In this document: positions 7,757 to 38,858 of the stretch, one piece after another
Position numbering within the stretch: position 1 is the first letter of the stretch
How the letters are laid out: each line of letters opens with the position of its first letter
Source of the DNA: Burkholderiales bacterium
GTDB lineage: Bacteria > Pseudomonadota > Gammaproteobacteria > Burkholderiales > JAEUOS01
Length of the DNA: 40,799 nt
Direction: 5' to 3'
NCBI GenBank assembly: GCA_947473125.1
Contig: CANJDH010000039.1
Span: 1-40,799, forward strand
Program-made: the position numbers and the translations under genes
The notes under the pieces: generated by a model
Told to the model about the DNA's origin: nothing
What the model saw: only the letters and a program-made list of their open reading frames with translations
The model's database searches: none

Positions 7757-8329
7757 ATGATCCTGATGATCGACAACTACGATTCCTTCACCTGGAACCT
7801 GGTGCAGTATTTCGGTGAGCTAGGTGCCGATATGAAGGTCGTGCTCAACGATGAAGTTTCCGTCAGTGACGTGGCTGCCATGAAGCCCGAGAAAATCGTG
7901 ATTTCCCCCGGGCCGTGTTCCCCCAATGAAGCCGGTATCTCGCTCGAAACCATCAAGGCGTTTGCCGGCAAGCTGCCGATCCTCGGTGTCTGCCTCGGTC
8001 ACCAGGCGCTCGGCCAGGCCTTCGGCGGCAAGGTGGTCCACGCACAAACCTTGATGCATGGCAAGACCTCGCCGGTCGAGCACACCGGGGTCGGCGTGTT
8101 TGCAGGTTTGCCAAGCCCCTTTACCGCCACGCGTTATCACTCGCTCGCCGTCGAGCGAAGTAGCCTGCCCGATTGCCTCGAAGTCACCGCCTGGACGGCT
8201 GATGGCGAAATCATGGGCCTGCGCCACAAGACACTCGACGTCGAAGGCGTGCAGTTCCACCCCGAATCGATATTGACCGAACATGGTCACCGGATGCTGA
8301 AGAATTTTCTACAAGGAGAAGCCAGATGA
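7757..8329 (+). CDS. trpG: Anthranilate synthase component II (glutamine amidotransferase)
   Basis: A class-I glutamine amidotransferase of 190 residues that releases ammonia from glutamine and passes it to TrpE. The N-terminus [15 protein letters not shown] and the oxyanion-loop SPGP are characteristic. The catalytic triad is complete: Cys79 in GVCLGHQ, and His168 and Glu170 in [11 protein letters not shown]. In many bacteria the same subunit also serves para-aminobenzoate synthase; no pabB lies here, so that dual use is only a possibility. The start is three bases after the trpE stop, and the stop overlaps the trpD start as ATGA, giving tight stoichiometric coupling. Confidence 0.95.
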
Positions 8330-9351
8330 TTACCCCCCAGGAAGCCCTGACCCGCGTCATCGAACATCGTGAAATCTTTCACGACGAGATGCTCGAAATC
8401 ATGCGCCAGATCATGAGCGGCCAGATGTCGCCGGTGCTGATCTCGGCGATCATCATCGGCCTGCGTGTCAAGAAGGAAACCATCGGCGAGGTCACCGCCG
8501 CGGCGCAGGTGATGCGCGAGCTCGCCACCAAGGTCAATGTCAAGGACCAGACCCACCTGGTCGACATCGTCGGTACCGGCGGCGACGGCGCCCACACCTT
8601 CAACATTTCCACCGCCTCGATGTTCGTGGCCGCCGCCGCCGGCGCGCGCGTCGCCAAGCACGGCGCACGCGCGGTGTCGTCCAAATCGGGCGCCGCCGAC
8701 GTGCTCGAAGCCTTCGGCGTCAACATCAACCTGCAGCCGGCCCAGGTCGGGCAGTGCATCGACGAAATCGGCATCGGTTTCATGTTCGCCCCGAACCACC
8801 ACGCGGCGATGAAGCATGCCGCGCCGGTGCGGCGCGAGCTCGGCGTGCGCACCATTTTCAACATCCTCGGGCCCCTGACCAATCCGGCCGGCGCGCCGAA
8901 CGTGATGATGGGCGTGTTCCACGGTGATCTGGTCGGGATCCAGGCGCGCGTGATGCAGCGGCTCGGCAATCGCCACGCGCTGGTGGTGCACGGTGCCGAA
9001 GGCCTCGATGAAATCTCGATTTCCGGCCGCACTTTTGTCGGCGAGTTGAAAGACGGTCGCGTTGAAGAGTACGAAATCCATCCGGAGCGCTTCGGCCTCG
9101 GCGTGCACGACTCGCGCACCCTGCGCGTGGCGACGGTGGAGGAATCGCGCGAGATGGTGTTGTCGGCACTCGAGAATAAACCCGGTGCGGCACGCGACAT
9201 CGTCGCGGTCAACGCCGGCGCGGGCATCTATGTGTCGGGCAAGGCGGCAACGCTCGAAGACGGCGTCGCAAAGGCTTTCGAGATCATCAAGAGCGGGGCA
9301 GCGCGTGCCAAGCTGGACGATTTCATCAAGATGACCCAGAAATTCAAATAG
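8326..9351 (+). CDS. trpD: Anthranilate phosphoribosyltransferase
   Basis: Transfers the phosphoribosyl group of PRPP to anthranilate, the second step of the tryptophan branch. At 341 residues it is of normal length. The PRPP-binding motif GTGGDG is at residues 83-88, followed by TFNISTAS, then [18 protein letters not shown] and the later [12 protein letters not shown] region, in family order. The residue between the Gly and Arg of KHG-x-R is Ala, a position where other members have Asn or Gly. AAGGAG at 8313-8318 lies before the start, and the ATG overlaps the trpG stop. TrpG and TrpD are separate here rather than fused as in enteric bacteria. Confidence 0.95.
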
Positions 9352-9358
9352 GCGGCCG

Positions 9359-10147
9359 ATGAGCGACATCCTCGACAAGATCCTGGCGGTCAAGGCGACC
9401 GAAGTCGCCGCCGCGAAGGTGCGCATCGACCTGGCCGGGATTCGCAGCGCCGCCGCCGCCGCTGCCCCGCCGCGCGGTTTTGAAGCCGCCTTGCGCAGCA
9501 AGGTGGCCGAGGGCCGCGCAGCGGTGATTGCCGAGATCAAGAAGGCCAGCCCCTCGAAGGGCGTGATCCGCGCCGACTTCAAGCCCGCCGAGATCGCTGC
9601 GGATTACGCCGCGCACGGCGCGGCCTGCCTGTCGGTGCTGACTGATGAGCAATTCTTCCAGGGGCATGCCGACTATCTCAAGGCGGCGCGCGCGGCCTGC
9701 AAGCTGCCGGCCTTGCGCAAGGACTTCATGGTCGACGAGTACCAGGTGTATGAAGCGCGCGCCTGGGGCGCAGACTGCATTTTGCTGATCGTCGCGGCGC
9801 TTGATCTGGGTCAAATGAAGGCGTTTGAGTCGCTCGCGCACGAACTGGGCATGGCAGTATTGGTCGAAGTGCATGATGCTGCAGAGCTGGACCTTGCGTT
9901 GCAACTCAAGACGCCCCTGCTCGGCATCAACAACCGCAACCTGCGCACGTTCGAAACCAGCCTGGAGTCCACACTCTCATTGTTGCCGCGCATTCCCCAA
10001 GACAAACTGGTCGTCACCGAATCGGGCATTCTCGGAAAAGATGACGTGCAGCGCATGCGCGCCAAGGGCGTCAATGCGTTTTTGGTGGGTGAGGCATTCA
10101 TGAAGGCACCGAGTCCGGGAACAGAGTTGGCGCGCCTGTTTGCATAG
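9359..10147 (+). CDS. trpC: Indole-3-glycerol-phosphate synthase
   Basis: A single-domain TIM-barrel enzyme of 262 residues that closes the indole ring, turning CdRP into indole-3-glycerol phosphate. The motif [10 protein letters not shown] (residues 59-68) holds the phosphate and catalytic Lys region. [26 protein letters not shown] and [11 protein letters not shown] are the later barrel strands with catalytic Lys, Glu and Asn. TrpF is not fused to it, unlike in enteric bacteria. It begins seven bases after the trpD stop and is the last trp gene visible; trpF, trpB and trpA must lie elsewhere, as is common in betaproteobacteria. Confidence 0.95.
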
Positions 10148-26451: not shown

Positions 26452-27510
26452 ATGACAGCCCCCCCCGATTTCCTGCTTGGCTGCAATGGGCGCGGCGCCC
26501 AGGCGTCGTCAATCGCCAGCCCCGTGTCGCTGCGGGAGGCGACAATTGACGAACAGTTCCGCATGGTTAAGGAGTCGGGCGTGTTCGACTATTTCGATCG
26601 CCTGCCCTTGCGCTCCGAGCTTGATAGCTACCTGGTTGCGATCGACAAGTACCAACTCCCGGTGCATACCGGCAGCTGGTTTTACCGGCTCGGGCGTGAC
26701 GATGCACTGCTGGCCGACAACCTCATCCTGTGCAAGGAGGTGGGGGCGGCGTGCCACAACATCATGACCTTCACGCGGCACGCCGACGGCCATGTATTGA
26801 CCGATGACGAGATTGTGCGCCACTACGTCGATACCTACGAGGCCGGCATGAAATTGGGCGTCGAACCGAGCTTCGAGTTGCATGTGAACATGTGGACCGA
26901 GGATTTTCGCCGCGTCACGCCGATTGCACGCCGCATCGAAGGGCAGGGCATTCCGTTTCATTTCACGATGGACTACAGCCACGTGGCGTTCAAGATCGGC
27001 AATGCCCGCGAGCAGGACCTCTCGGGTGTGCGTGAAGACGTCGAATCCGGGCGCCTGATTCTAGATCCGTTCGAAGACGACAGCCTGTGCGACGAATGGC
27101 TCGATCTCGGTATCGTGCGCTGGACCCAGCTGCGCACCGTCGGGCCGAACCAGCCGATGAACCTGTGGTGTCCGAACGATCCCGAGGCGCCGCCCGGTGA
27201 CACGCTGGCCTACGGGCCGCATGCGCGCGGAATTCAATACCCGATCACCAGGCCCGCACCGGGTGAGTGGCACTCACCCTGGCACGCCTACATGATTGAG
27301 CCGTCCAAAGAGGCGATTCGCAAGGTGCTGCGCCACCATGCGGCGCACCGCTCCAGCCGCCTCAGGTACATCACCACCGAAATGATCAATTTGCCCGATT
27401 ACGGGCTTGGCGCGAAGTACAACCTGTTCGAGCAGAACGTGGCATGTGCACGCTTCATCCGCCAGACCTGGGCAGATATCCAGGCGTCAGCACCGGCCGC
27501 CGGCCATTGA
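26452..27510 (+). CDS. Sugar phosphate isomerase/epimerase-like TIM-barrel protein
   Basis: A 352-residue protein of the xylose-isomerase-like/AP-endonuclease-2 superfamily. Candidate metal ligands are the acidic and His residues in PSFELHVNMW and in FTMDYSHVAFK, plus Glu and His residues further on (WHSPWHAYMIEPSKE). The superfamily covers sugar isomerases, epimerases and some catabolic aldolase- or hydrolase-like enzymes, so a precise reaction cannot be given. It starts 17 bases after LivF and precedes the HyuA gene, so it is part of the catabolic operon. An isomerase acting on a ring-opened intermediate would fit; this is inference. Confidence 0.75.
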   Translation: MTAPPDFLLGCNGRGAQASSIASPVSLREATIDEQFRMVKESGVFDYFDRLPLRSELDSYLVAIDKYQLPVHTGSWFYRLGRDDALLADNLILCKEVGAACHNIMTFTRHADGHVLTDDEIVRHYVDTYEAGMKLGVEPSFELHVNMWTEDFRRVTPIARRIEGQGIPFHFTMDYSHVAFKIGNAREQDLSGVREDVESGRLILDPFEDDSLCDEWLDLGIVRWTQLRTVGPNQPMNLWCPNDPEAPPGDTLAYGPHARGIQYPITRPAPGEWHSPWHAYMIEPSKEAIRKVLRHHAAHRSSRLRYITTEMINLPDYGLGAKYNLFEQNVACARFIRQTWADIQASAPAAGH

Positions 27511-27540
27511 TGCCCGAGCCCACTATTCCACGAAAAGCCC

Positions 27541-29598
27541 ATGAGTACACTTGCAGGCATTGACGTAGGCGGCACTTTCACCGACCTGATCCTGGTCGAT
27601 GACGTCACTGGCGAGGTCAAGCTCGCCAAGGTGCCGACCACCGTCCACAACCAGGCCTTTGGCGTGCTGGCTGCGCTCGACGCGGCGGGTGCCGACACGG
27701 CCGGCCTCGCCGCCATCATCCATGGCACGACCACCACCACCAACGCGATGCTGGAGCGCAAGATCGCCAAGGTGGGCCTGATCACCACGCGCGGGTTTTG
27801 CGATGTGCTGGAGCTGGGGCGCCGCACCCGACCCAAGGCCTACGGCATGACCGGCACGTTTGTACCGCTGATTCCACGTGAGCTGCGCTTTGAAGTGGCC
27901 GAGCGCATGGATGCCGAGGGCAGGGTGCTCACCGCGCTCGACGAAGCGGCAGTGGCCGATGCCGCCAGGGCATTGGTTGCGGCCGGTGCCGAAGCCGTGG
28001 TCATCCATTTCCTGCACAGCTATATCAATCCGGCGCACGAGCGCCGCGCCGGCGAGCTTGTGCGCGCGCTGTGGCCCAACCCCTATGTCACCGTGGGCCA
28101 CACCATCGTCGCCGAATACCGCGAGTACGAGCGCGGCGTCACTGCGGCGGTGAACGCAGCGATTCAACCGGTGCTGGCGCGCTACATCGAGCGCCTGCAG
28201 AGCGAGTTGAAAGGGCGGGGCTTCGCCAAGGATTTGCTGGTCATGCAGGGCAACGGCGGTACGGTGTCATCCTCTATCGTTGCCGAACACGCCGTCAACA
28301 CGGTCATGTCGGGCCCGGCATCGGGCGTGATTGCCGCGGCCTACACCGGCAATGCGTCGGGCATGCCGAACCTGGTGACCTACGACATGGGCGGCACGTC
28401 CAGCGACGTGGCACTGATCAAGGATGGCCAGCCCTCGGTGTCCAGCGAACTCGAACTCGAGTACGCCATGCCGATCCATGTGCCGATGATCGACGTGCAT
28501 ACCATCGGCGCCGGTGGCGGCTCGCTGGCCAGCGTCGACGCTGCCGGCATGCTGCGGGTCGGGCCGGAGAGCGCCGGCGCGACGCCCGGGCCGATCTGCT
28601 ATGCGCGTGGCGGCGCGCGACCGACGATCACCGACGCCAACCTGGTGTTGGGCCGCCTCAATCCCGACAAGTTGCTGTCGGTCGACAACCCGGTGCCGCT
28701 CGAGCGGGTGCGTGAACTGCTGGTCGAGCACGTCGGGGCAAAACTCGGGCTTGATGCGGTCCAGACGGCCGCCGCGATTCTGCGCATCGCCAACGACAAG
28801 ATGGCCGGTGCGATCCGCATGGTGAGCCTGGCGCGCGGGCACGATCCGCGCGATTTCGCGCTGTTTGCGTTTGGCGGTGCCGGCCCCTTGCATGCCTGCG
28901 CCTTGGCCCGGGAACTGGGCATTCCGAAGGTACTGATACCGGCAAGACCCGGTCTGACCAATGCGCTCGGCTGCACCGTGGCCGATGTGCGCCACGACTA
29001 CGTGCGCACCATCAACCAGCCGCTGAAGTCACTCGATGAAGGCCTGCTGGCGCGCGTGTTTGCCGAGCAGGAGGCCATGGGCCGCGCCACCATCGAGCGC
29101 GAACGGGTCGAGGTTGAACGCATCGAGTGCGTGCTGTCGGCCGACATGCAATTTCAGGGGCAGAGCCACTTGCTGACGGTGCCGGTCGCGTCGGCGGCGA
29201 TGAGTCTTGCTCAGCTGCACGCGGCATTTGAAGCCGCCTACTGGACGCGCTTCGGCGTCGAGCTCAAGGAGATTCGCCCGGCGCTGGTTAACCTGTCGAC
29301 CGCGGTGATCGGGCGGCGCCGGCAGGTGGACCTGAAGGCGATTGCCGCCTCCGAACCCAGGGCGACCCTGGGTGATGCACAAGTAGGGTCGCGTCAGGTG
29401 TGGTTTGCGGGCGATGATTCCGGCGCGGGCAGCATTGCTGGTTTTGTGGAGACACCGGTCTACAAGCGCGAATGGTTTCCCGAGGGGGTTCGTTTTACCG
29501 GCCCGGCGATCATCGAACAACTCGACTGCACCACGGTCGTCGATCCGGGCGCACGGGTCGAACTCGACACGGTCGGCAACCTGATCCTGCAGATCTGA
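27541..29598 (+). CDS. Hydantoinase/oxoprolinase family protein, HyuA type
   Basis: A 685-residue ATP-dependent hydrolase subunit. The N-terminal ATPase signature GIDVGGTFTDLILVD starts at residue 6, then HGTTTTTNAMLERK, the central YDMGGTSSDVAL, the GAGGGS loop and the C-terminal GPAIIEQLDCTTVVDPG. N-methylhydantoin amidohydrolase, 5-oxoprolinase and acetone carboxylase contain this subunit, and all use ATP to activate a carbonyl or lactam. They normally need a HyuB-type partner, encoded next door or fused, but none is seen before or after. It could open a lactam formed by the reductase-like enzyme upstream. Lacking a clear ribosome-binding site, it begins with CCACGAAAAGCCC just before the ATG. 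Confidence 0.88.
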   Translation: MSTLAGIDVGGTFTDLILVDDVTGEVKLAKVPTTVHNQAFGVLAALDAAGADTAGLAAIIHGTTTTTNAMLERKIAKVGLITTRGFCDVLELGRRTRPKAYGMTGTFVPLIPRELRFEVAERMDAEGRVLTALDEAAVADAARALVAAGAEAVVIHFLHSYINPAHERRAGELVRALWPNPYVTVGHTIVAEYREYERGVTAAVNAAIQPVLARYIERLQSELKGRGFAKDLLVMQGNGGTVSSSIVAEHAVNTVMSGPASGVIAAAYTGNASGMPNLVTYDMGGTSSDVALIKDGQPSVSSELELEYAMPIHVPMIDVHTIGAGGGSLASVDAAGMLRVGPESAGATPGPICYARGGARPTITDANLVLGRLNPDKLLSVDNPVPLERVRELLVEHVGAKLGLDAVQTAAAILRIANDKMAGAIRMVSLARGHDPRDFALFAFGGAGPLHACALARELGIPKVLIPARPGLTNALGCTVADVRHDYVRTINQPLKSLDEGLLARVFAEQEAMGRATIERERVEVERIECVLSADMQFQGQSHLLTVPVASAAMSLAQLHAAFEAAYWTRFGVELKEIRPALVNLSTAVIGRRRQVDLKAIAASEPRATLGDAQVGSRQVWFAGDDSGAGSIAGFVETPVYKREWFPEGVRFTGPAIIEQLDCTTVVDPGARVELDTVGNLILQI

Positions 29599-31657: not shown

Positions 31658-33844
31658 ATGACATCAACAAAACAAAAGGCGCTCAGCGCACTATTGTGCA
31701 GTGTCGCAGCGCTTTCAATCGGCATGCCCGGCGTGTCGATTGCCGCGGCGCCGGTTGCCGCCAAGGCAAGCAAAGCGGCTACCGGTGAAATCAGCGGTGT
31801 CGTAACCGGAGCGAACGGGCCGGAAGCGGGCGTGTGGGTGGTCGCGGAGACCTCCAGCTTGCCCACCGGGTTTACCAAGATCGTTGTGACCGATGACAAC
31901 GGCCGCTTCATGATCCCCGAACTTCCCAAGGCGAGCTACAAGGTCTGGGTGCGCGGTTACGGCCTGACCGATTCGGCCAAGGTATCGGCCAGCCTGGGGC
32001 AGACCCTCAAACTCAAAGTCAAGCCGGCCGTCAGCGAGAAGGCTGCTGCCGAAATCTATCCGGGCATGTATTGGTATTCGCTCATGAACATTCCGGACAA
32101 ATCGGAGTTTCCGGGCACCGGCGAGAAGGGCAATGGCATCAGCGCCAACATGAAGGCGCAGCACTACTGGATCGATACGGTCAAGCACTCGTGCCAGTCG
32201 TGTCATGCGCTCGGCAGCAAGGGCATGCGTACCGTTCCTGAGCAGTTTGCCAAGCTCGGCAGCGGCGAGGCCGTATGGGGGCGTCGCATGCAGTCCGGCC
32301 AGGCCATGACCAACATGGCGCTGTCGCTGGGCAACATCGGCGTGGATCGCGCGCTCAAGGAGTTTTCCGGCTGGACTGATCGCATCGCCGGTGGTGAATT
32401 GCCTTTTGCCAAACCCGAGCGACCGAAAGGCATTGAACGCAACGTGGTGATATCGGCGTGGAACTTTTCCTCGCCCAAGCACTACCTGCATGACGGCATC
32501 TCAAGCTATCAGCATAACCCCAGCGTGAATGCGAACGGCCCGATTTACGGTTCGTCCGAAGAGAGCACCGACAATGTTCCGGTGCTGGACCCGGTCAATC
32601 ACCGTGCCTATACCGTCAAGCACCCGATTGTTGATGCGAAGACGCCGTCATCGCTATCTTTGCCGATGCAACCATCCGCGTATTGGGGTGACAAGCCGAT
32701 CTGGGACGGGCACAGCAGCCTCCACAACAACATGATGGGTCCTGACGGGCGCGTCTGGTTCAGCGCGCGCAGCCGTTCCGCGCCCAACCCCGCCTTCTGC
32801 AAGCAGGGTTCCGACCACCCGTCGGCCAAAGTGGCCCCGCTCAATGAGTCACCGCGCCAGTTGTCGGTGTACGACCCCAAGACCAAGAAATGGGCGCATG
32901 TCGACACCTGCTTCTCGACGCACCATCTCTATTTCGCCAAGGACAACAGCACCCTCTGGATCAGCCAGGGCGGCCCGAACAGCGGCGTGGTGGGCTGGGT
33001 CGATACCAAGAAATTTCTCGAGACCGGGGACTCGGCCAAATCGCAAGGCTGGACGCCGATCATCGTCGACTCGAACGGCAACGGCAAGCGCGATGCCTGG
33101 GTCGGGCCGAACGATCCGCTCGATCCCGCCAAGGACAAGCGCATCATGGCTGCCTTTTACGGCGTGATGCCCAGCACGGTGGACGATTCGGTATGGGGCC
33201 AGGCGATGGATCGCGGGTTCTCGCGGATCGACCAACCGGGTTACATCATCCGCCTGACGCCAGGTTCGGACCCCGCCAATACGTCTCTCGCGGAAATCTA
33301 CCTGCCGCCTGAAGGGCACTTTGGCTCGCGTGGTATCGACATGGACCTCAACGGGCTGGTGTGGGTGCCGTTTGCCAGTGGCTACGTCGGCAGTTTCGAT
33401 CGCAAGAAATGCAAGGGCCCGCTCAATGGCCCCGAGGCAGCCACCGGCAAGCATTGTCCTGAAGGCTGGACCATGTACCAGATGCCCGGCCCGCAATTCA
33501 AGGGTTTGAAAGACGCGGGCAGTGCGAACGTGGCGTATTACGTCTGGGTGGATCGTTACAACTCGCTCGGCCTGGGCGCCAATGTGCCGATCTTCATGGC
33601 AAACGGCTCCGAGTCCCTGCTGGCGGTGGTCGATGGCAAGATGATCGACATGCACGTGCCGTATCCGGCCGGGTTCTTCACCAAGCTGGTGGATGGCCGC
33701 ATCGACAATCCGAATACCGGCTGGAAGGGCCGCGGATTGTGGACCATGTCGGGAACCCGTACCGTGTTCCACAACGAAGGCGGCACGAAGAACTATCCCA
33801 AGGTGTACAAGCTGCAGATCCGGCCGGACCCGCTGGCGAAATAA
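31658..33844 (+). CDS. Exported mono-haem cytochrome c with carboxypeptidase-regulatory and propeller-like domains
   Basis: A 728-residue protein. AGGAGG at 31647-31652 supports ATG 31658. Residues 1-30 form a signal peptide (LLCSVAALSIGMPGVSIAAA). Residues about 42-120 are a carboxypeptidase-regulatory-like beta sandwich (GEISGVVTGANGPEAGVWVVAE). A haem c site CQSCH is at 179-183 with Met-rich sequence nearby for a sixth ligand. From about residue 300 a repetitive beta-rich part suggests a propeller of virginiamycin-lyase-like type (ISQGGPNSGVVGWVDTKKF, GSRGIDMDLNGLVWVPF, GYVGSFDRKKC). It therefore probably works in the periplasm as a redox or haem enzyme, but I know of no defined reaction. 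A strong terminator follows; small membrane proteins come next. Confidence 0.8.
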   Translation: MTSTKQKALSALLCSVAALSIGMPGVSIAAAPVAAKASKAATGEISGVVTGANGPEAGVWVVAETSSLPTGFTKIVVTDDNGRFMIPELPKASYKVWVRGYGLTDSAKVSASLGQTLKLKVKPAVSEKAAAEIYPGMYWYSLMNIPDKSEFPGTGEKGNGISANMKAQHYWIDTVKHSCQSCHALGSKGMRTVPEQFAKLGSGEAVWGRRMQSGQAMTNMALSLGNIGVDRALKEFSGWTDRIAGGELPFAKPERPKGIERNVVISAWNFSSPKHYLHDGISSYQHNPSVNANGPIYGSSEESTDNVPVLDPVNHRAYTVKHPIVDAKTPSSLSLPMQPSAYWGDKPIWDGHSSLHNNMMGPDGRVWFSARSRSAPNPAFCKQGSDHPSAKVAPLNESPRQLSVYDPKTKKWAHVDTCFSTHHLYFAKDNSTLWISQGGPNSGVVGWVDTKKFLETGDSAKSQGWTPIIVDSNGNGKRDAWVGPNDPLDPAKDKRIMAAFYGVMPSTVDDSVWGQAMDRGFSRIDQPGYIIRLTPGSDPANTSLAEIYLPPEGHFGSRGIDMDLNGLVWVPFASGYVGSFDRKKCKGPLNGPEAATGKHCPEGWTMYQMPGPQFKGLKDAGSANVAYYVWVDRYNSLGLGANVPIFMANGSESLLAVVDGKMIDMHVPYPAGFFTKLVDGRIDNPNTGWKGRGLWTMSGTRTVFHNEGGTKNYPKVYKLQIRPDPLAK

Positions 33845-33859
33845 GGGCCGGGCAATCTC

Positions 33860-33887
33860 AAAAACGCCTGCTTGCGCAGGCGTTTTT
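33860..33887 (+). terminator. Intrinsic terminator after the cytochrome gene
   Basis: Stem ACGCCTGC (33864-33871) with GCAGGCGT (33876-33883), loop TTGC, flanked by AAAA before and TTTT after (33884-33887). This is the clearest intrinsic terminator in the window. It lies 15 bases after the cytochrome stop, so the downstream membrane-protein genes are either read through at low level or have their own promoter. Confidence 0.9.
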
Positions 33888-33944
33888 GTTGAGTAAAGGC
33901 AGTTTCGCTTTCGCTTTTTTCTCATGTGGAGGAGCATTGCAGCC

Positions 33945-34451
33945 ATGGATTTTCTGTTTGACTACATTCACGTCAACACCTTCTGGACCATCGTGCTGAT
34001 CGTTCACGGGCTGATGGCCGTGGCCTTGCTCGGTGCCCTCACGCACCAGGCGATGGCGGTGTTGTGGCCGGTGCGCACGGGCGAGCGCGCGGACGGTTTC
34101 GTCGCGCGTTTTCGCGCGGTGTCGGGCCAGCGCTATGCAGTTGCCGTGTGCGTCCTCTGGGTGGCAACTTTCTTCTTCGGGGCGTGGCTCTATACCAAAT
34201 ATCGTATTTATGTGCGCATCCCGATCGAACAGGATGGTTTTTTCAAGACGCAGGGCGTTTTTGAACTCAAGGAGCACCTCGTCAGCTTTGGGCTCGGCGC
34301 CCTGCCCGCCTACTGGTATCTTTGGACCCATGCGGCTGACGAGGCCTACCGCAGTACGCGCAAATGGCTGACCGCCTGGCTGGCGGCGGTTTGCTGGTAC
34401 GCCTTTCTCGTCGGGCATATTGTCAACAATGTACGGGGGTTCGGCTCATGA
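33945..34451 (+). CDS. Four-helix, His-containing membrane protein, possible cytochrome b
   Basis: A 168-residue inner-membrane protein of unrecognised family. Four hydrophobic helices are visible at about 14-40, 64-84, 110-129 and 141-161. Histidines sit in or near helices 1, 3 and 4 (His21, His34, His111, His129, His158), compatible with haem b ligation, though this is inferred only from position. GGAGGAG at 33928-33934 lies ten bases before ATG 33945; an ATG at 33924 overlaps that site and is less likely. The stop overlaps the next gene as ATGA. Between a periplasmic cytochrome c gene and a second membrane protein, it may form the membrane half of an electron-transfer complex. Confidence 0.72.
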   Translation: MDFLFDYIHVNTFWTIVLIVHGLMAVALLGALTHQAMAVLWPVRTGERADGFVARFRAVSGQRYAVAVCVLWVATFFFGAWLYTKYRIYVRIPIEQDGFFKTQGVFELKEHLVSFGLGALPAYWYLWTHAADEAYRSTRKWLTAWLAAVCWYAFLVGHIVNNVRGFGS

Positions 34452-34807
34452 ACGAGACAACGCAGGTGCAGTCGCTGCGATTGAAAGTGTTTGTCATGGT
34501 GTTCGGGATCGCCATGCCGGTGTTGTACACGGTGGGCGACATGGCGGCTCTGCCGCTGTTCACCTACCATCCCGGCACCGACCGGCTGGAGTGGGGCTGG
34601 GGGCCGGCGCGCAAGGACGAGGGCCCTGCCATGTACTGGTACGGCTGGATCGCGATGTCCACGCTCGGCGCGGCCGTACTGGGCGGGCTGGCTGCGGCAT
34701 TGCCGCCGAAACTTACGGCACGCCTGCCCTTGTGCCTGTTATGGGTGGTGCCGGTGCTGCTGATACCGCTGCTGGTGTACTCTCTGAAGTATTACTGGAG
34801 GTGGTAG
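34448..34807 (+). CDS. Small three-helix membrane protein of unknown function
   Basis: A 119-residue protein with hydrophobic helices at about 12-32, 63-85 and 93-113. The loop between helices 1 and 2 is aromatic and charged (FTYHPGTDRLEWGWGPARKDEGPAMYWYGW), likely on the periplasmic side. I do not recognise the family. The start overlaps the previous membrane protein's stop as ATGA, so the two are probably made together and may form a complex. The C-terminus ends YYWRW. No conserved catalytic motif is visible. Confidence 0.72.
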   Translation: MNETTQVQSLRLKVFVMVFGIAMPVLYTVGDMAALPLFTYHPGTDRLEWGWGPARKDEGPAMYWYGWIAMSTLGAAVLGGLAAALPPKLTARLPLCLLWVVPVLLIPLLVYSLKYYWRW

Positions 34808-34811
34808 AGCC

Positions 34812-35228
34812 ATGAAGCTTCGGATGACTGCCCAATGCCCGTCGGCGATTGCCCTTCGAATTTTCGCCTGGGGGCTGACGATGGCGGTGCTGTCTGCTCC
34901 CGTCGCACGGGCCGGCGGGGGGGACGACGACGCGGCGGGTGACGTTGCCGTGGAAGGGCCGTCCTACTACGGGTTCGTATGGGATACGCGCGGCGCAACG
35001 ATTCCCGGTGCCACGGTGGTGCTGCGCGGCAAGACCGGCAAGCCGGCCGAACAAAAGGCCAATCTACTGGGCATGTACCGCACCCACATCAACAAGGACG
35101 TCAAGCCGGTGGATGTGGTGATGGCCTGCGAGAAGGCGGGATACCGGCAGACCAAGGTGGTCAGGCGCCAGTTGCCGGATGCTTCGGCGGCCCGCGTCCA
35201 GATCGACTGCGTGATGCAAAAGCTGTAA
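34812..35228 (+). CDS. Secreted carboxypeptidase-regulatory-like protein
   Basis: A 138-residue protein starting four bases after the previous stop. Residues 1-34 are a signal peptide ending APVARAGG, then an acidic patch (DDDAAGD), then a beta-sandwich of carboxypeptidase-regulatory type (YYGFVWDTRGATIPGATVVLRGKTGKPAEQ...LGMYRTHI). The same fold occurs at the N-terminus of the cytochrome protein at 31658, so the pair may share a binding partner. It has two Cys in the mature part (ACEKAGY and IDCVMQ), which could form a disulfide. No enzymatic residues are evident. Confidence 0.72.
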   Translation: MKLRMTAQCPSAIALRIFAWGLTMAVLSAPVARAGGGDDDAAGDVAVEGPSYYGFVWDTRGATIPGATVVLRGKTGKPAEQKANLLGMYRTHINKDVKPVDVVMACEKAGYRQTKVVRRQLPDASAARVQIDCVMQKL

Positions 35229-35248
35229 CGCCGCCCGGCCATCATCCG

Positions 35249-36952
35249 ATGCGCCTCGGCCGCTTTGGCAAGGCTCTGCTCGCAGTCCTGCTCGCCGGCA
35301 GCTTGCCGACCGGCGCGGCACCGGGGCGGGAAGCCGGCGCAGCTGACACCGTGCTGGTCAATGGCAGGATTCTCCGCTTCGATGCGACGCCGGCCGAAGC
35401 GCTGGCGGTGCGCGATGGACGCATCCTTGCCGTCGGCACCGGCAGCCAGGTTCGCCGGTACCAGGGACCGCGCTCCCGCGTGATCGACCTCGCCGGGAAA
35501 ACCGTGATTCCCGGGCTCATCGACTCGCACATCCATGCGATCCGGGCCGGGTTGACCTACGGCACGGAAGTCGACTGGATCGGGATGCGCTCGCTTCCCG
35601 CCGCGTTGGCGCGCTTGCGCGAAGCGGCGCGCGCCAGACCGAAAGGCACCTGGCTGGTGGTGGCGGGAGGCTGGACCGAGGCGCAATTTGCCGAGCGCCG
35701 CCGCCCGACGCAGGCCGAGGTCGCCGCCGCAGCGCCGGAGCACCATGTCTACGTGCAGCGGCTTTACAGCGCCGTGCTGTTCTCGCCGGGCGCCTTCGAG
35801 GCCCTCGGGGTGATGCGCCAGCCGGAGCTGGCGTCGCGCCTGAAGATCGAAGAGGGGCCCGATGGGCAAGCCACCGGCTGGTTCTCAGGGGATGCACGCA
35901 CCGTGAGCGATCTATACGACTTGCTGCCCGCGCCGGGGCATGCCGCGCAGGTGCAAGGCACCCGCGCGTTCTTCCGCCAGCTCAACGGCATGGGCATTAC
36001 CGGCGTCATCGATCCGGGCGGTTACAACATGCCGGTTGAAGCTTATGCGGCGCTGTTCGACCTCTGGCGGCAGAAGGGATTGAGCTTGCGCGTGGTGTAC
36101 AGCATCTGTGCGCCGCGTCGTGATGTCGAGCTGGAGGATTTCGCAGCATTGACGGCCCTGGTTCCGATGGGGGCGGGCGACGACTGGTTGCGCTTCAATG
36201 GCATCGGCGAAAACGTCGTCTGGGAGATGTACAACAACGACGCGCCGTCCGAGGCGGCGCGGGCGCGGCTGGCGCGGGTGCTGCGCTGGGCCGCCGCTCG
36301 GCAACTGACGGCCACCTTTCACTGGAACAACAATCGTTCCGTCGACCACCTGTTGCGCGTGATCGAGGAAGTTGACCGGGAGCGCAAGGTGGGGCCTCTG
36401 CGCTGGTCGATCGCACACCTCAACGATGCATCGGTCGATTCCCTGCGGCGCATGCGGGCGCTGGGATTGGGCTGGCTGGTGCAAAACGGCCTGTACTTCC
36501 GCGGCGAAGAGTTCATGCACCAGCATGGCAGCGCCGCCGCGCATGAGGTCCCGCGCATCACCGAGGCGCTGCGCCAGGGCGTGCCGGTCGGCGCCGGCAC
36601 CGACGCGCATCGCGTCATGTCCTACAACCCCTTCGTGGCCCTGCAATGGATGCTGGACGGCAAGACTGTCGGCGGAACGGCCACGCGCGGCCCCGCTGCA
36701 CTGCCGACGCGCATGCAGGCGCTGCGCCTTTACACCGAAGGCAGCGCATGGTTCGCGAGGGATGAATCGCGGCGCGGCGCTCTCGAGGTGGGTCGCCTTG
36801 CGGACCTGGCGGTATTGAGCGGCGACTATCTGGAAATGCCGGTCGCCGAGATAGGCCGTCTGCGCTCGCTGCTCACCATGGTGGGAGGGCGCATTGTGTA
36901 CGCCTCCGATGACTATGCAGCCATGGAGGGTCGGGCGGACAGCCGACGCTGA
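35249..36952 (+). CDS. Exported amidohydrolase family protein (YtcJ-like)
   Basis: A 567-residue metal-dependent hydrolase. Residues 1-25 form a signal peptide, so it acts outside the cytoplasm, which is unusual for this group. The beta-sandwich VLVNGRILRFDATPAEALAVRDGRILAVG leads into the barrel with metal ligands His94 and His96 in GLIDSHIHAIRAG. Later barrel parts are FHWNNNRSVDHLL, SIAHLNDAS and GAGTDAHRVMSYNPF with the catalytic Asp, then LYTEGSAWFARDE and GRLADLAVLS, all as in YtcJ/formamide-deformylase-like proteins. It could cut an amide, formamide or lactam bond, but the substrate cannot be read. It follows the membrane-protein cluster by 20 bases and converges on the LysR gene. Confidence 0.88.
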   Translation: MRLGRFGKALLAVLLAGSLPTGAAPGREAGAADTVLVNGRILRFDATPAEALAVRDGRILAVGTGSQVRRYQGPRSRVIDLAGKTVIPGLIDSHIHAIRAGLTYGTEVDWIGMRSLPAALARLREAARARPKGTWLVVAGGWTEAQFAERRRPTQAEVAAAAPEHHVYVQRLYSAVLFSPGAFEALGVMRQPELASRLKIEEGPDGQATGWFSGDARTVSDLYDLLPAPGHAAQVQGTRAFFRQLNGMGITGVIDPGGYNMPVEAYAALFDLWRQKGLSLRVVYSICAPRRDVELEDFAALTALVPMGAGDDWLRFNGIGENVVWEMYNNDAPSEAARARLARVLRWAAARQLTATFHWNNNRSVDHLLRVIEEVDRERKVGPLRWSIAHLNDASVDSLRRMRALGLGWLVQNGLYFRGEEFMHQHGSAAAHEVPRITEALRQGVPVGAGTDAHRVMSYNPFVALQWMLDGKTVGGTATRGPAALPTRMQALRLYTEGSAWFARDESRRGALEVGRLADLAVLSGDYLEMPVAEIGRLRSLLTMVGGRIVYASDDYAAMEGRADSRR

Positions 36953-36992: not shown

Positions 36993-37901
36993 TCAGCGCG
37001 CCTTGCGCGCGCGCAGGGCCTTGCGCAAATGGTCGTGAAAAATTTCCGCAGCGGGGCGCAGCGTAGACCCGTGTCGCGTGATCAACCCGAGGGTACGGTG
37101 CGTGGCCGGTGCACGCAATGCCAGGGACGTAACGGTGGGGTGGCCCGCCGGCAGCGCCATGCGCGGCACCACGGCCACGCCAAGACCCGCCTCCACCATG
37201 CCCAGCAGGGTAGAGATATGGCTGACTTCCACCGCAATGGCCGGATTCATGCCGGCCTTGGCCAGTGCATCATCAAGAAGCTGTCGGTTGCCGCTGCTGC
37301 GGGCTACCGAGATCATGCGCTCGCCGCCGAGGTCAGCCCAGCGCACCGTCTTGCGTTTCGCCAGCTTGTGGTCGCGACGCAAGGCCAGCACGAACGGGTC
37401 CACATGGATGTGCTCGAAGTCGATCTCGGGCACCTGGGTGCGCATGAAGCTGATGCCGAAATCGGCTTCACCGGAAATCACGCTGGCCAAAACCTGGTTG
37501 GCGGGCTCGTCCACCACGCGCAGGCGGATGCCCGGGTATTGCTCGGTGAAGGTGCGTACCACGACGGGCAGGAAATACACGGCGGCCGACGAAACGCAAC
37601 CCACGGTGACGCGCCCAGTGCGCGTGGCGGCGATGTCCGACACGCTCAACATGGCGCTTTCGAGGTCGTCCAGTGCCGAGCGCGCACGGTCGAGGAAAAT
37701 GCGCCCCAGGCTGGTCAGTCGGATTTCGCGCGTGGTGCGATGGAACAGGCGCGCACCCAGCGCCGTTTCAAGGTTCTCGATGCGGCGTGAAAGCGCCGGT
37801 GGCGACAGGTTGATTTGTTCAGCCGCAGCGCGAAAGCTGCCGCGCTCCGCCGCGGCGACAAAGGCATGCAGTTGCTGGAGGTCGAAATTGATGCGTAGCA
37901 T
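36993..37901 (-). CDS. LysR-family transcriptional regulator
   Basis: A 302-residue regulator. The HTH (QLHAFVAAAERGSFRAAAEQINLSPPALSRRIENLETALG) is at residues about 10-50, and the effector domain follows from about 90 (GRVTVGCVSSAAVYFLPVVVRTF). It is divergent from the hydratase gene. Its start codon and first codons overlap the inverted repeat at 37887-37909, so autorepression is likely. The same repeat at 31559-31581 suggests that it also controls the cytochrome gene. The inducer is unknown; a CoA-ester precursor or organic acid handled by the neighbouring hydratase and lyase would fit. Confidence 0.92.
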   Translation of the reverse strand: MLRINFDLQQLHAFVAAAERGSFRAAAEQINLSPPALSRRIENLETALGARLFHRTTREIRLTSLGRIFLDRARSALDDLESAMLSVSDIAATRTGRVTVGCVSSAAVYFLPVVVRTFTEQYPGIRLRVVDEPANQVLASVISGEADFGISFMRTQVPEIDFEHIHVDPFVLALRRDHKLAKRKTVRWADLGGERMISVARSSGNRQLLDDALAKAGMNPAIAVEVSHISTLLGMVEAGLGVAVVPRMALPAGHPTVTSLALRAPATHRTLGLITRHGSTLRPAAEIFHDHLRKALRARKAR

Positions 37902-37928
37902 GCATCAATACTATCAAAAATTGCACTT
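37887..37928 (+). promoter_or_regulatory. LysR-type operator between divergent LysR and hydratase genes
   Basis: ATTGATGC (37887-37894), seven bases, GCATCAAT (37902-37909), with T at 37892 and A at 37904 forming a T-N11-A core. TCAAA-A-ATTGCACTT follows at 37914-37928. The right half-site plus following block match 31574-31600 at 23 of 27 positions with the same spacing. In LysR systems the palindrome is usually the recognition site and the following block the activation site near the -35 region; the orientation points towards the hydratase gene. Confidence 0.7.
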
Positions 37929-38006
37929 CATTAATTTGTCGCACCCGACGAAAATCCTTCCTCGGCTGGCGCCGCCGTGATGGATTGAATGACAGGGGTA
38001 TCGCGC

Positions 38007-38858
38007 ATGAGCATCAACCTGGCCGACTGGGTCGGCCGCACTGAAATCATTGACGACAGCGTCACGCCAACGCCGGTGGCGGCGCTCTCGGCCACGCTGG
38101 ACTGGCCGTCGCAGCGGCCCGCCACAGGTACGCCGTTGCCGACCCTCTGGCATTGGCTCTACTTTTTGCCGCTGGCGCCACAAGCCGACATCGGACCCGA
38201 CGGGCATCCGAAGCGCGGCGGTTTCCTGCCGCCGGTGCCGCTGCCGCGGCGCATGTGGGCCGGGAGCGACTTCGTCTTTCACGATCCGCTGCTGGTGGGC
38301 GACACGCTGAGCCGCACCTCCACCATCGTCGACGTGAAGGAAAAAAGCGGCCGTACCGGCAACCTCATCTTTGTCAAGGTGCGCCACGAAATCCGCCGCA
38401 ACGGCAGCGCCGGGGTGGCGCTCACCGAGCATCACAACATCGTCTATCGCGATGCGCCACAGCCAGGCGACATTGCGCCGCCGCCAGCGTCCGCACCGGC
38501 AGAAGCGGCATGGAGCCGCCCGATCAAGGCCGACGACGTCCTGCTGTTTCGCTACTCGGCCCTCACGTTCAACGGCCACCGGATCCACTACGACCGCAAG
38601 TACGTCACTGAAGTCGAGGGCTACCCCGGGCTGATTGTCCACGGCCCCCTGATCGCCACGCTGTTGATGGACCTGCTGCGTCGTCAGCTGCCCGGCGCAG
38701 TGGTGCGCAAGTTCGAATTCAAGGCGATCCGACCGACCTTTGACATCCATCCGTTCGCGGTGCACGGCCAGCCATCTGCCGACGGCAAGACCGTCCATCT
38801 ATGGGCCAGCGACCACGAAGGCTGGCACACCATGGACGCCACCGCCACGCTCGACTGA
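38007..38858 (+). CDS. MaoC/FAS1-like dehydratase (mesaconyl-C4-CoA hydratase type)
   Basis: A 283-residue double-hot-dog protein. The N-terminal half has HWLYFLPLAPQADIGPDGHP and GGFLPPVPLPRRMWAGSDF, as in mesaconyl-C4-CoA hydratases and related FAS1-like dehydratases. The C-terminal half has the MaoC hydratase motif region FNGHRIHYDRKYVTEVEGYPGLIVHGPL. Such enzymes add water to branched unsaturated CoA esters (mesaconyl-, itaconyl- or 2-enoyl-CoA). ATG 38007 is preferred to 37989 although neither has a strong ribosome-binding site. It is the first gene downstream of the LysR operator and precedes the lyase gene by 49 bases. No CoA ligase or CoA-transferase is in view; it may lie beyond the right edge. 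Confidence 0.85.
   Translation: MSINLADWVGRTEIIDDSVTPTPVAALSATLDWPSQRPATGTPLPTLWHWLYFLPLAPQADIGPDGHPKRGGFLPPVPLPRRMWAGSDFVFHDPLLVGDTLSRTSTIVDVKEKSGRTGNLIFVKVRHEIRRNGSAGVALTEHHNIVYRDAPQPGDIAPPPASAPAEAAWSRPIKADDVLLFRYSALTFNGHRIHYDRKYVTEVEGYPGLIVHGPLIATLLMDLLRRQLPGAVVRKFEFKAIRPTFDIHPFAVHGQPSADGKTVHLWASDHEGWHTMDATATLD

Follow-up and report, generated by a model that had tools for sequence, protein, structure and literature searches.

An unnamed five-gene cluster in a Burkholderiales bacterium that combines a predicted cytochrome c-propeller protein, two membrane proteins, and an exported amidohydrolase

Periplasmic propellers coupled to haem c are found in the quinohaemoprotein dehydrogenases and other cytochrome c-propeller proteins, such as the pyrroloquinoline quinone (PQQ) dehydrogenases, cytochrome cd1, and hydrazine synthase. 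A related arrangement is seen with thiocyanate dehydrogenase, a periplasmic copper propeller enzyme whose cytochrome c partner is the single-haem cytochrome c552 (PMC9456337). In virginiamycin B lyase (Vgb, or streptogramin B lyase), the propeller has its Mg2+- and substrate-binding site in blades 6 and 7, while CylK, an enzyme with the Vgb fold, forms C-C bonds (PMC8916777). Here, we consider a cluster of five genes, designated A to E. It lies in a stretch of 40,799 nucleotides from a Burkholderiales bacterium (assembly GCA_947473125.1, contig CANJDH010000039.1, positions 1 to 40,799 of the forward strand), which is referred to below as the window. The first-pass annotation had placed a cluster of five proteins at 31658-36952, and this layout holds, with the five genes adjacent and all on the plus strand, as follows:

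31658..33844, plus strand: gene A, exported protein with a CarboxypepD_reg domain, a monohaem cytochrome c domain, and a Vgb-like seven-bladed propeller (from Pfam, a structure model, and 55 homologues)
33859..33888, plus strand: terminator-like hairpin between A and B, with a stem of 13 pairs and a T-rich 3' arm (from folding energy compared with shuffles)
33945..34451, plus strand: gene B, four-helix membrane protein of no known family, with a polar cluster on the predicted periplasmic side (from a model and an alignment)
34448..34807, plus strand: gene C, three-helix membrane protein of no known family, overlapping B by 4 bases (from hydrophobic segments)
34812..35228, plus strand: gene D, small secreted protein, CarboxypepD_reg-like and sandwich-like, with invariant Cys 106 and 133 (from Pfam and homologues)
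35249..36952, plus strand: gene E, exported Amidohydro_3 (YtcJ-like) hydrolase with an HxH motif (from Pfam and 9 aligned homologues)

This five-gene set lacks a name and fits no named system. NCBIfam names none of A to D, Pfam has no match for B or C, and no description of the cluster or of a named system was found in the part of the literature that was searched, in keeping with its earlier listing as unassigned; a reading as a defence system found no PADLOC match. The first-pass suggestion of a periplasmic system that would oxidise or cleave a substrate and feed electrons to the membrane is supported in part. We tentatively favour, as a serious possibility that falls a little short of probable, the reading of A as a haem-c enzyme of the periplasm whose lyase-type propeller carries a pocket of its own. 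In this model, a pocket formed by H278, H356, and H423 together with Y501, R558, Y627, and K676 would be coupled to one covalent haem c, and A would oxidise a small molecule, or cleave one with removal of electrons. From the haem, electrons would pass to a soluble cytochrome c, to the membrane pair B/C, or to both, with B/C serving as a module for docking or as a quinone-linked one. D would take part in the periplasm by binding or scaffolding, and hydrolysis of the substrate or the product would fall to E. The sequences, predicted folds, conservation, and linkage behind this model are shown, and the attachment of haem, a metal in the pocket, the redox chemistry, the contact of A with B/C, the substrate, and the part played by E are inferred.

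The evidence for this begins with A, which had been described as joining a carboxypeptidase-regulatory domain, one CQSCH haem site, and a propeller-like region; all three parts have been recovered. Residues 45-121 match PF13620 (CarboxypepD_reg) at 32.2 bits, just below the cutoff of 32.3, and the match recurs in all 55 A homologues. Each of the 55 also carries a single CxxCH, which in the window copy is the CQSCH at 179-183 (C179, C182, H183). Together with the N-terminal hydrophobic segment at 8-31, A thus has the combination of CxxCH and signal peptide by which a monohaem c-type cytochrome is recognised. M220 is the sole Met that is invariant across the homologues, and it is probable, as judged from sequence, that the haem c is ligated by H183 with M220 as the second ligand. 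A confident structure model (predicted local distance difference test, pLDDT, 90.9; predicted template modelling score, pTM, 0.89) forms a seven-bladed propeller at about residues 257-723. The solved structure nearest to this region is virginiamycin B lyase (Z 23.1, root-mean-square deviation 2.5, 288 aligned residues), with which A has the fold in common at 11% identity. The top four structural matches are all Vgb/streptogramin lyases (Z 22.8-23.1, all others at most 19.9), and by structural comparison, the propeller is of the Vgb seven-bladed type; a Foldseek ranking alone returned mixed WD40-type propellers.

Beyond the haem site, exactly three histidines of A, H278, H356, and H423, are invariant among the homologues. 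In the predicted model, these open the innermost strand of each of the first three blades, and Y501, R558/G559, Y627, and K676 hold the equivalent places in blades 4-7. R558 is replaced by His in 1 of the 55 homologues and the other pocket residues are invariant, while 14% of the propeller residues overall are invariant, a comparison that is a description rather than a test because the positions were picked after the alignment had been viewed. The model suggests that these residues form a pocket at the mouth of the central propeller tunnel, which may hold a metal. Given that the Mg2+ and substrate site of Vgb belongs to blades 6 and 7 and the invariant histidines of A to blades 1-3 (as placed by the strands of the model), it is unlikely that A works with an unaltered Vgb site. 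Furthermore, PF24684 (Vgb_lyase) has no match at E 0.1 in A or any of its 55 homologues and none anywhere in the window's own genome. Membership of A in the virginiamycin B lyase family was consequently rejected, on the lack of a PF24684 match and the different location of the conserved histidines. A also differs from Vgb in being exported and in having CarboxypepD_reg and haem c domains.

The likeness to Vgb is nevertheless the starting point of the chief rival explanation, a periplasmic lyase-hydrolase pathway without net redox chemistry. A would then split a lactone, ester, or ether by elimination as Vgb does, E would hydrolyse the product, and the haem would be structural or regulatory. 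Besides the nearest fold, this explanation can draw on a paralogue, c11, a CarboxypepD_reg, CxxCH, and Vgb_lyase protein that scores above the Pfam Vgb_lyase cutoff and is homologous to A across most of its length (hhalign probability 99.6, E-value 1.7e-23), as well as on the amidohydrolase E and the alpha/beta hydrolases that adjoin A-type genes. c11 is shorter than A, and both are linked to B-C-D; in a profile alignment, H278-D279, R558, and Y627 of A have counterparts in c11, but H356 and H423 do not. What makes the lyase-hydrolase pathway somewhat unlikely in our estimation is the position of the conserved histidines in blades 1-3, away from the blades 6 and 7 at which Vgb has its site (PMC8916777), the haem site that has been kept in 55 of 55 homologues, and the company that A keeps. 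Directly after A in 8 related loci is a gene for a small, soluble cytochrome c (PF00034), which in 4 of these (L049, L056, L057, L058) stands between A and B. This placement fits electron transfer.

A has partial parallels in the systems described above. Unlike the quinohaemoprotein dehydrogenases, A has a Vgb-like propeller and a single haem site, and neither A nor its homologues match a PQQ family in Pfam or NCBIfam. Thiocyanate dehydrogenase and cytochrome c552 (PMC9456337) provide an analogy, rather than a claimed homology, for a histidine pocket that would feed a haem; however, they are separate polypeptides, unlike the fused A, whose metal is putative. CylK resembles A in having a Vgb-like propeller fused to another domain, with a different chemistry at another site, as is proposed for A, but it has no cytochrome, its N-terminal domain binds Ca, and its reaction is unrelated (PMC8916777).

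The second line of evidence is the linkage of A to its neighbours. A homologues are widespread, with at least 586 matching stretches in public genomes, which come from Pseudomonadota, Acidobacteriota, Rokubacteria, and others and, among the matches listed, mostly from environmental metagenome-assembled genomes; in the order sample, 11 of 120 genera have some match, in a few cases to single domains only. Cultured isolates that carry A include Roseomonas nepalensis, Plastoroseomonas arctica, and a Bradyrhizobium sp. B is rare. Searches seeded with B in three partly overlapping samples (369, 398, and 399 genomes) found it in 5 genomes (the window's own, G461, G052, G131, and G984), and all 5 of these B homologues adjoin A or c11. 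Apart from the window, 16 loci have B, C, and D in an unbroken row, always linked to A or c11, a count that includes loci fetched through A and one (L057) that ends inside C. E directly follows D in 10 of the 16 (L035, L045, L047, L049, L056, L058, L066, L080, L081, L089), and close relatives are found among the loci (L045/L047; L057/L058; L080/L081/L089). The paralogue c11 lies directly after D in three loci (L052, L085, L122) and ahead of B in two (L113, L118). The possibility that the neighbourhood might be conserved nowhere has therefore been refuted, and because the gene order is found again in 16 other loci, its recurrence exceeds chance. Many bacteria of soil and freshwater have the set. 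Mapped onto a tree of 91 A sequences, linkage to B-C-D must have changed at least 7 times, as the well-supported branches require, and a count this low was reached in 0 of 500 shuffles. Thus, the linkage has been made or lost repeatedly rather than simply shared by ancestry, which argues for a working relation between A and B-C-D. A possible plasmid origin was set aside, as only one plasmid relative of A was found (Microvirga, without B-C-D) and B has no plasmid match.

Several observations weigh against a redox enzyme wired to B/C. First, the common propeller fold does not fix the reaction. Second, the small cytochrome c gene is absent from the window, and the genome's nearest homologue is unlinked (47% identical, on another contig, C208, where none of A to D was seen next to it). 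Third, Foldseek, Pfam, and NCBIfam searches gave B no significant match to a structure or a family. Fourth, B-C-D is missing from the vicinity of most A homologues, which means that A can function independently of it. Finally, the stretch that contains the hairpin (33845-33900) folds at -26.2 kcal/mol (z -3.85; 0 of 200 shuffles equally stable), and because this 13-pair hairpin with its T-rich arm lies between A and B, A may be transcribed separately from B-E or more strongly. The hairpin, the frequent occurrence of A on its own, and the divergent arrangement in L066 could be taken together to mean that A and B-E are separate units, adjacent by chance, with A being a general catabolic cytochrome. 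We give this very low probability, since B-seeded searches find B solely beside A or c11 and the linkage has been repeated independently on the A tree.

For the membrane pair, the first-pass annotation had proposed a four-helix protein with histidines placed like haem b ligands and a three-helix partner. The helices of B are borne out by a model with four of them (3-40, 61-96, 101-128, and 133-166; pLDDT 84.9), and those of C by its three hydrophobic segments. The haem b is not. Among 16 B homologues, the only invariant histidines are H21, H34, and H158. Estimated from the helix ends, H158 and H111 lie at a similar depth, H21 is about 12-15 Å deeper, and H34 is near the opposite side; consequently, neither H21 nor H34 is matched by a conserved His at equal depth. 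H111 is the only same-depth partner of H158 by the helix boundaries and is Asn in 2 of the 16 homologues, which are near-identical to each other. C has no conserved His, and B has no match to a cytochrome b family in Pfam or NCBIfam. Haem b in B/C is not supported by the histidine pattern, which, on this estimate, departs from the facing His pairs that are usual. The fold matches of B, to cytochrome c oxidase subunit III (COX III), cytochrome b561, STEAP, and designed helical bundles, were set aside, their Foldseek E-values (at least 0.25) and Z scores (below 12) being in the chance range for helical bundles. B does have a conserved polar cluster (Y83, Y86, R87, E107, K109, E110, H158, N161, N162, R164), which is predicted to be periplasmic because the positive charges of loops 41-60 and 127-140 (means of 3.8 and 3.3 Lys+Arg) favour a cytoplasmic location for those loops. 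The cluster is counted in favour of the preferred reading.

It might instead be supposed that B/C serve in assembly, by inserting haem or metal into proteins of the A type. DUF420 proteins have been linked to oxidase assembly, and B has very weak DUF420 matches in 5 of 16 members (best E-value 0.042). Yet most A homologues lack B-C-D nearby, and in a larger order sample, most genomes with a full-length A from the order sample gave no B match; we find this explanation very doubtful. A broader proposal extends the preferred reading of A as a redox enzyme: the A family would be a widespread, undescribed class of haem-c oxidoreductases whose lyase-type propeller has a metal pocket of three histidines, with B/C as a new, quinone-linked membrane module that accepts the electrons. 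Taken whole, this is rather unlikely. If A is truly a redox enzyme, however, a whole class of periplasmic catabolism is missing from the annotation of these organisms, and B/C would be a new wiring of periplasmic cytochromes to the membrane. The parts of the cluster are few and clonable, making the question testable.

The two remaining proteins had been described as a further secreted beta-sandwich protein (D) and an amidohydrolase with a signal peptide (E). D is secreted and sandwich-like, and a PF13620-like match is present in 12 of 12 homologues scanned, the window copy itself being below threshold; a profile comparison of D with the N-terminal domain of A gave no usable alignment. E is an Amidohydro_3 protein (Pfam, E-value 2.4e-73) with an N-terminal hydrophobic stretch. 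Its metal motifs, H94 and H96 (HxH), H358, H390, and D452, are conserved in 9 of 9 aligned homologues, which identifies it as an amidohydrolase. CarboxypepD_reg-type domains often serve in binding. Their presence in both A and D, the frequent use of propellers as binding platforms, and the variable linkage of A to B-C-D would suit a model in which A acts in the periplasm as a sensor or a binding protein, its haem or propeller sensing a ligand, and B/C is a membrane signalling or transport unit. This seems quite improbable given that no signalling domain has been found in B or C, that E, with its complete metal-site motif, is an enzyme, and that A has cytochrome c neighbours. The same genome encodes a second exported copy of E (G000:C16; L036:9286-10950, minus strand), which shares about 54% identity with it across 561 residues and has none of A to D as a neighbour.

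Several of the related loci have further features. L041, L045, and L047 hold extended clusters of a GlcG/HbpS-like protein, A, a small cytochrome c, c11, and an alpha/beta hydrolase. In L045 and L047, another hydrolase comes next, and after it another A, which has B-C-D-E with it. In L118, a flavin amine oxidase gene (8279-9856) lies between c11 and B-C-D, and thus the enzyme that accompanies the B-C-D module varies. A 23-base repeat containing TTCGGGACAGGCAC occurs near these genes (L118:9132-13165) in at least 13 dispersed copies, some of them inside coding sequence. In L013, L019, L020, and L022 (G084:C16), the A homologue, at a contig end, is divided between reading frames and has two in-frame TAG codons; it is either a decayed copy or an assembly error.

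The surroundings of the cluster in the window point to no clear substrate, and the neighbouring genes are not counted as parts of it. The upstream genes encode a branched-chain-type ABC transporter, a hydantoinase-A-like protein, an Ldh_2 dehydrogenase, and a peptide methionine sulfoxide reductase; those on the downstream side encode a LysR regulator, a MaoC-like hydratase, a lyase of the 3-carboxymuconate cycloisomerase/adenylosuccinate lyase type, and a TctC/Bug-like receptor, the last assigned from its own sequence and its clustering with such proteins. The regulator is placed as follows:

36993-37901, minus strand: LysR gene, divergent from the MaoC-like gene at 37989 (region 36993-38858)

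Because of this divergent arrangement, LysR probably regulates the MaoC, lyase, and TctC-like genes rather than A-E. The neighbouring enzyme genes do not recur beside A, except for distant Ldh_2 relatives at some A genes and one MaoC relative (L095). Bug-like receptors are frequent near A, but they are very common in these bacteria generally. The open reading frame at 26452-27510, upstream of the hydantoinase-A-like gene, has no Pfam match, and the usual beta subunit was not seen adjacent. The hydantoinase-A-like gene itself, at 27541 (region 26452-29598), is caprolactamase alpha-like, scoring 517 bits against a cutoff of 1000, and the Ldh_2 dehydrogenase gene is next downstream.

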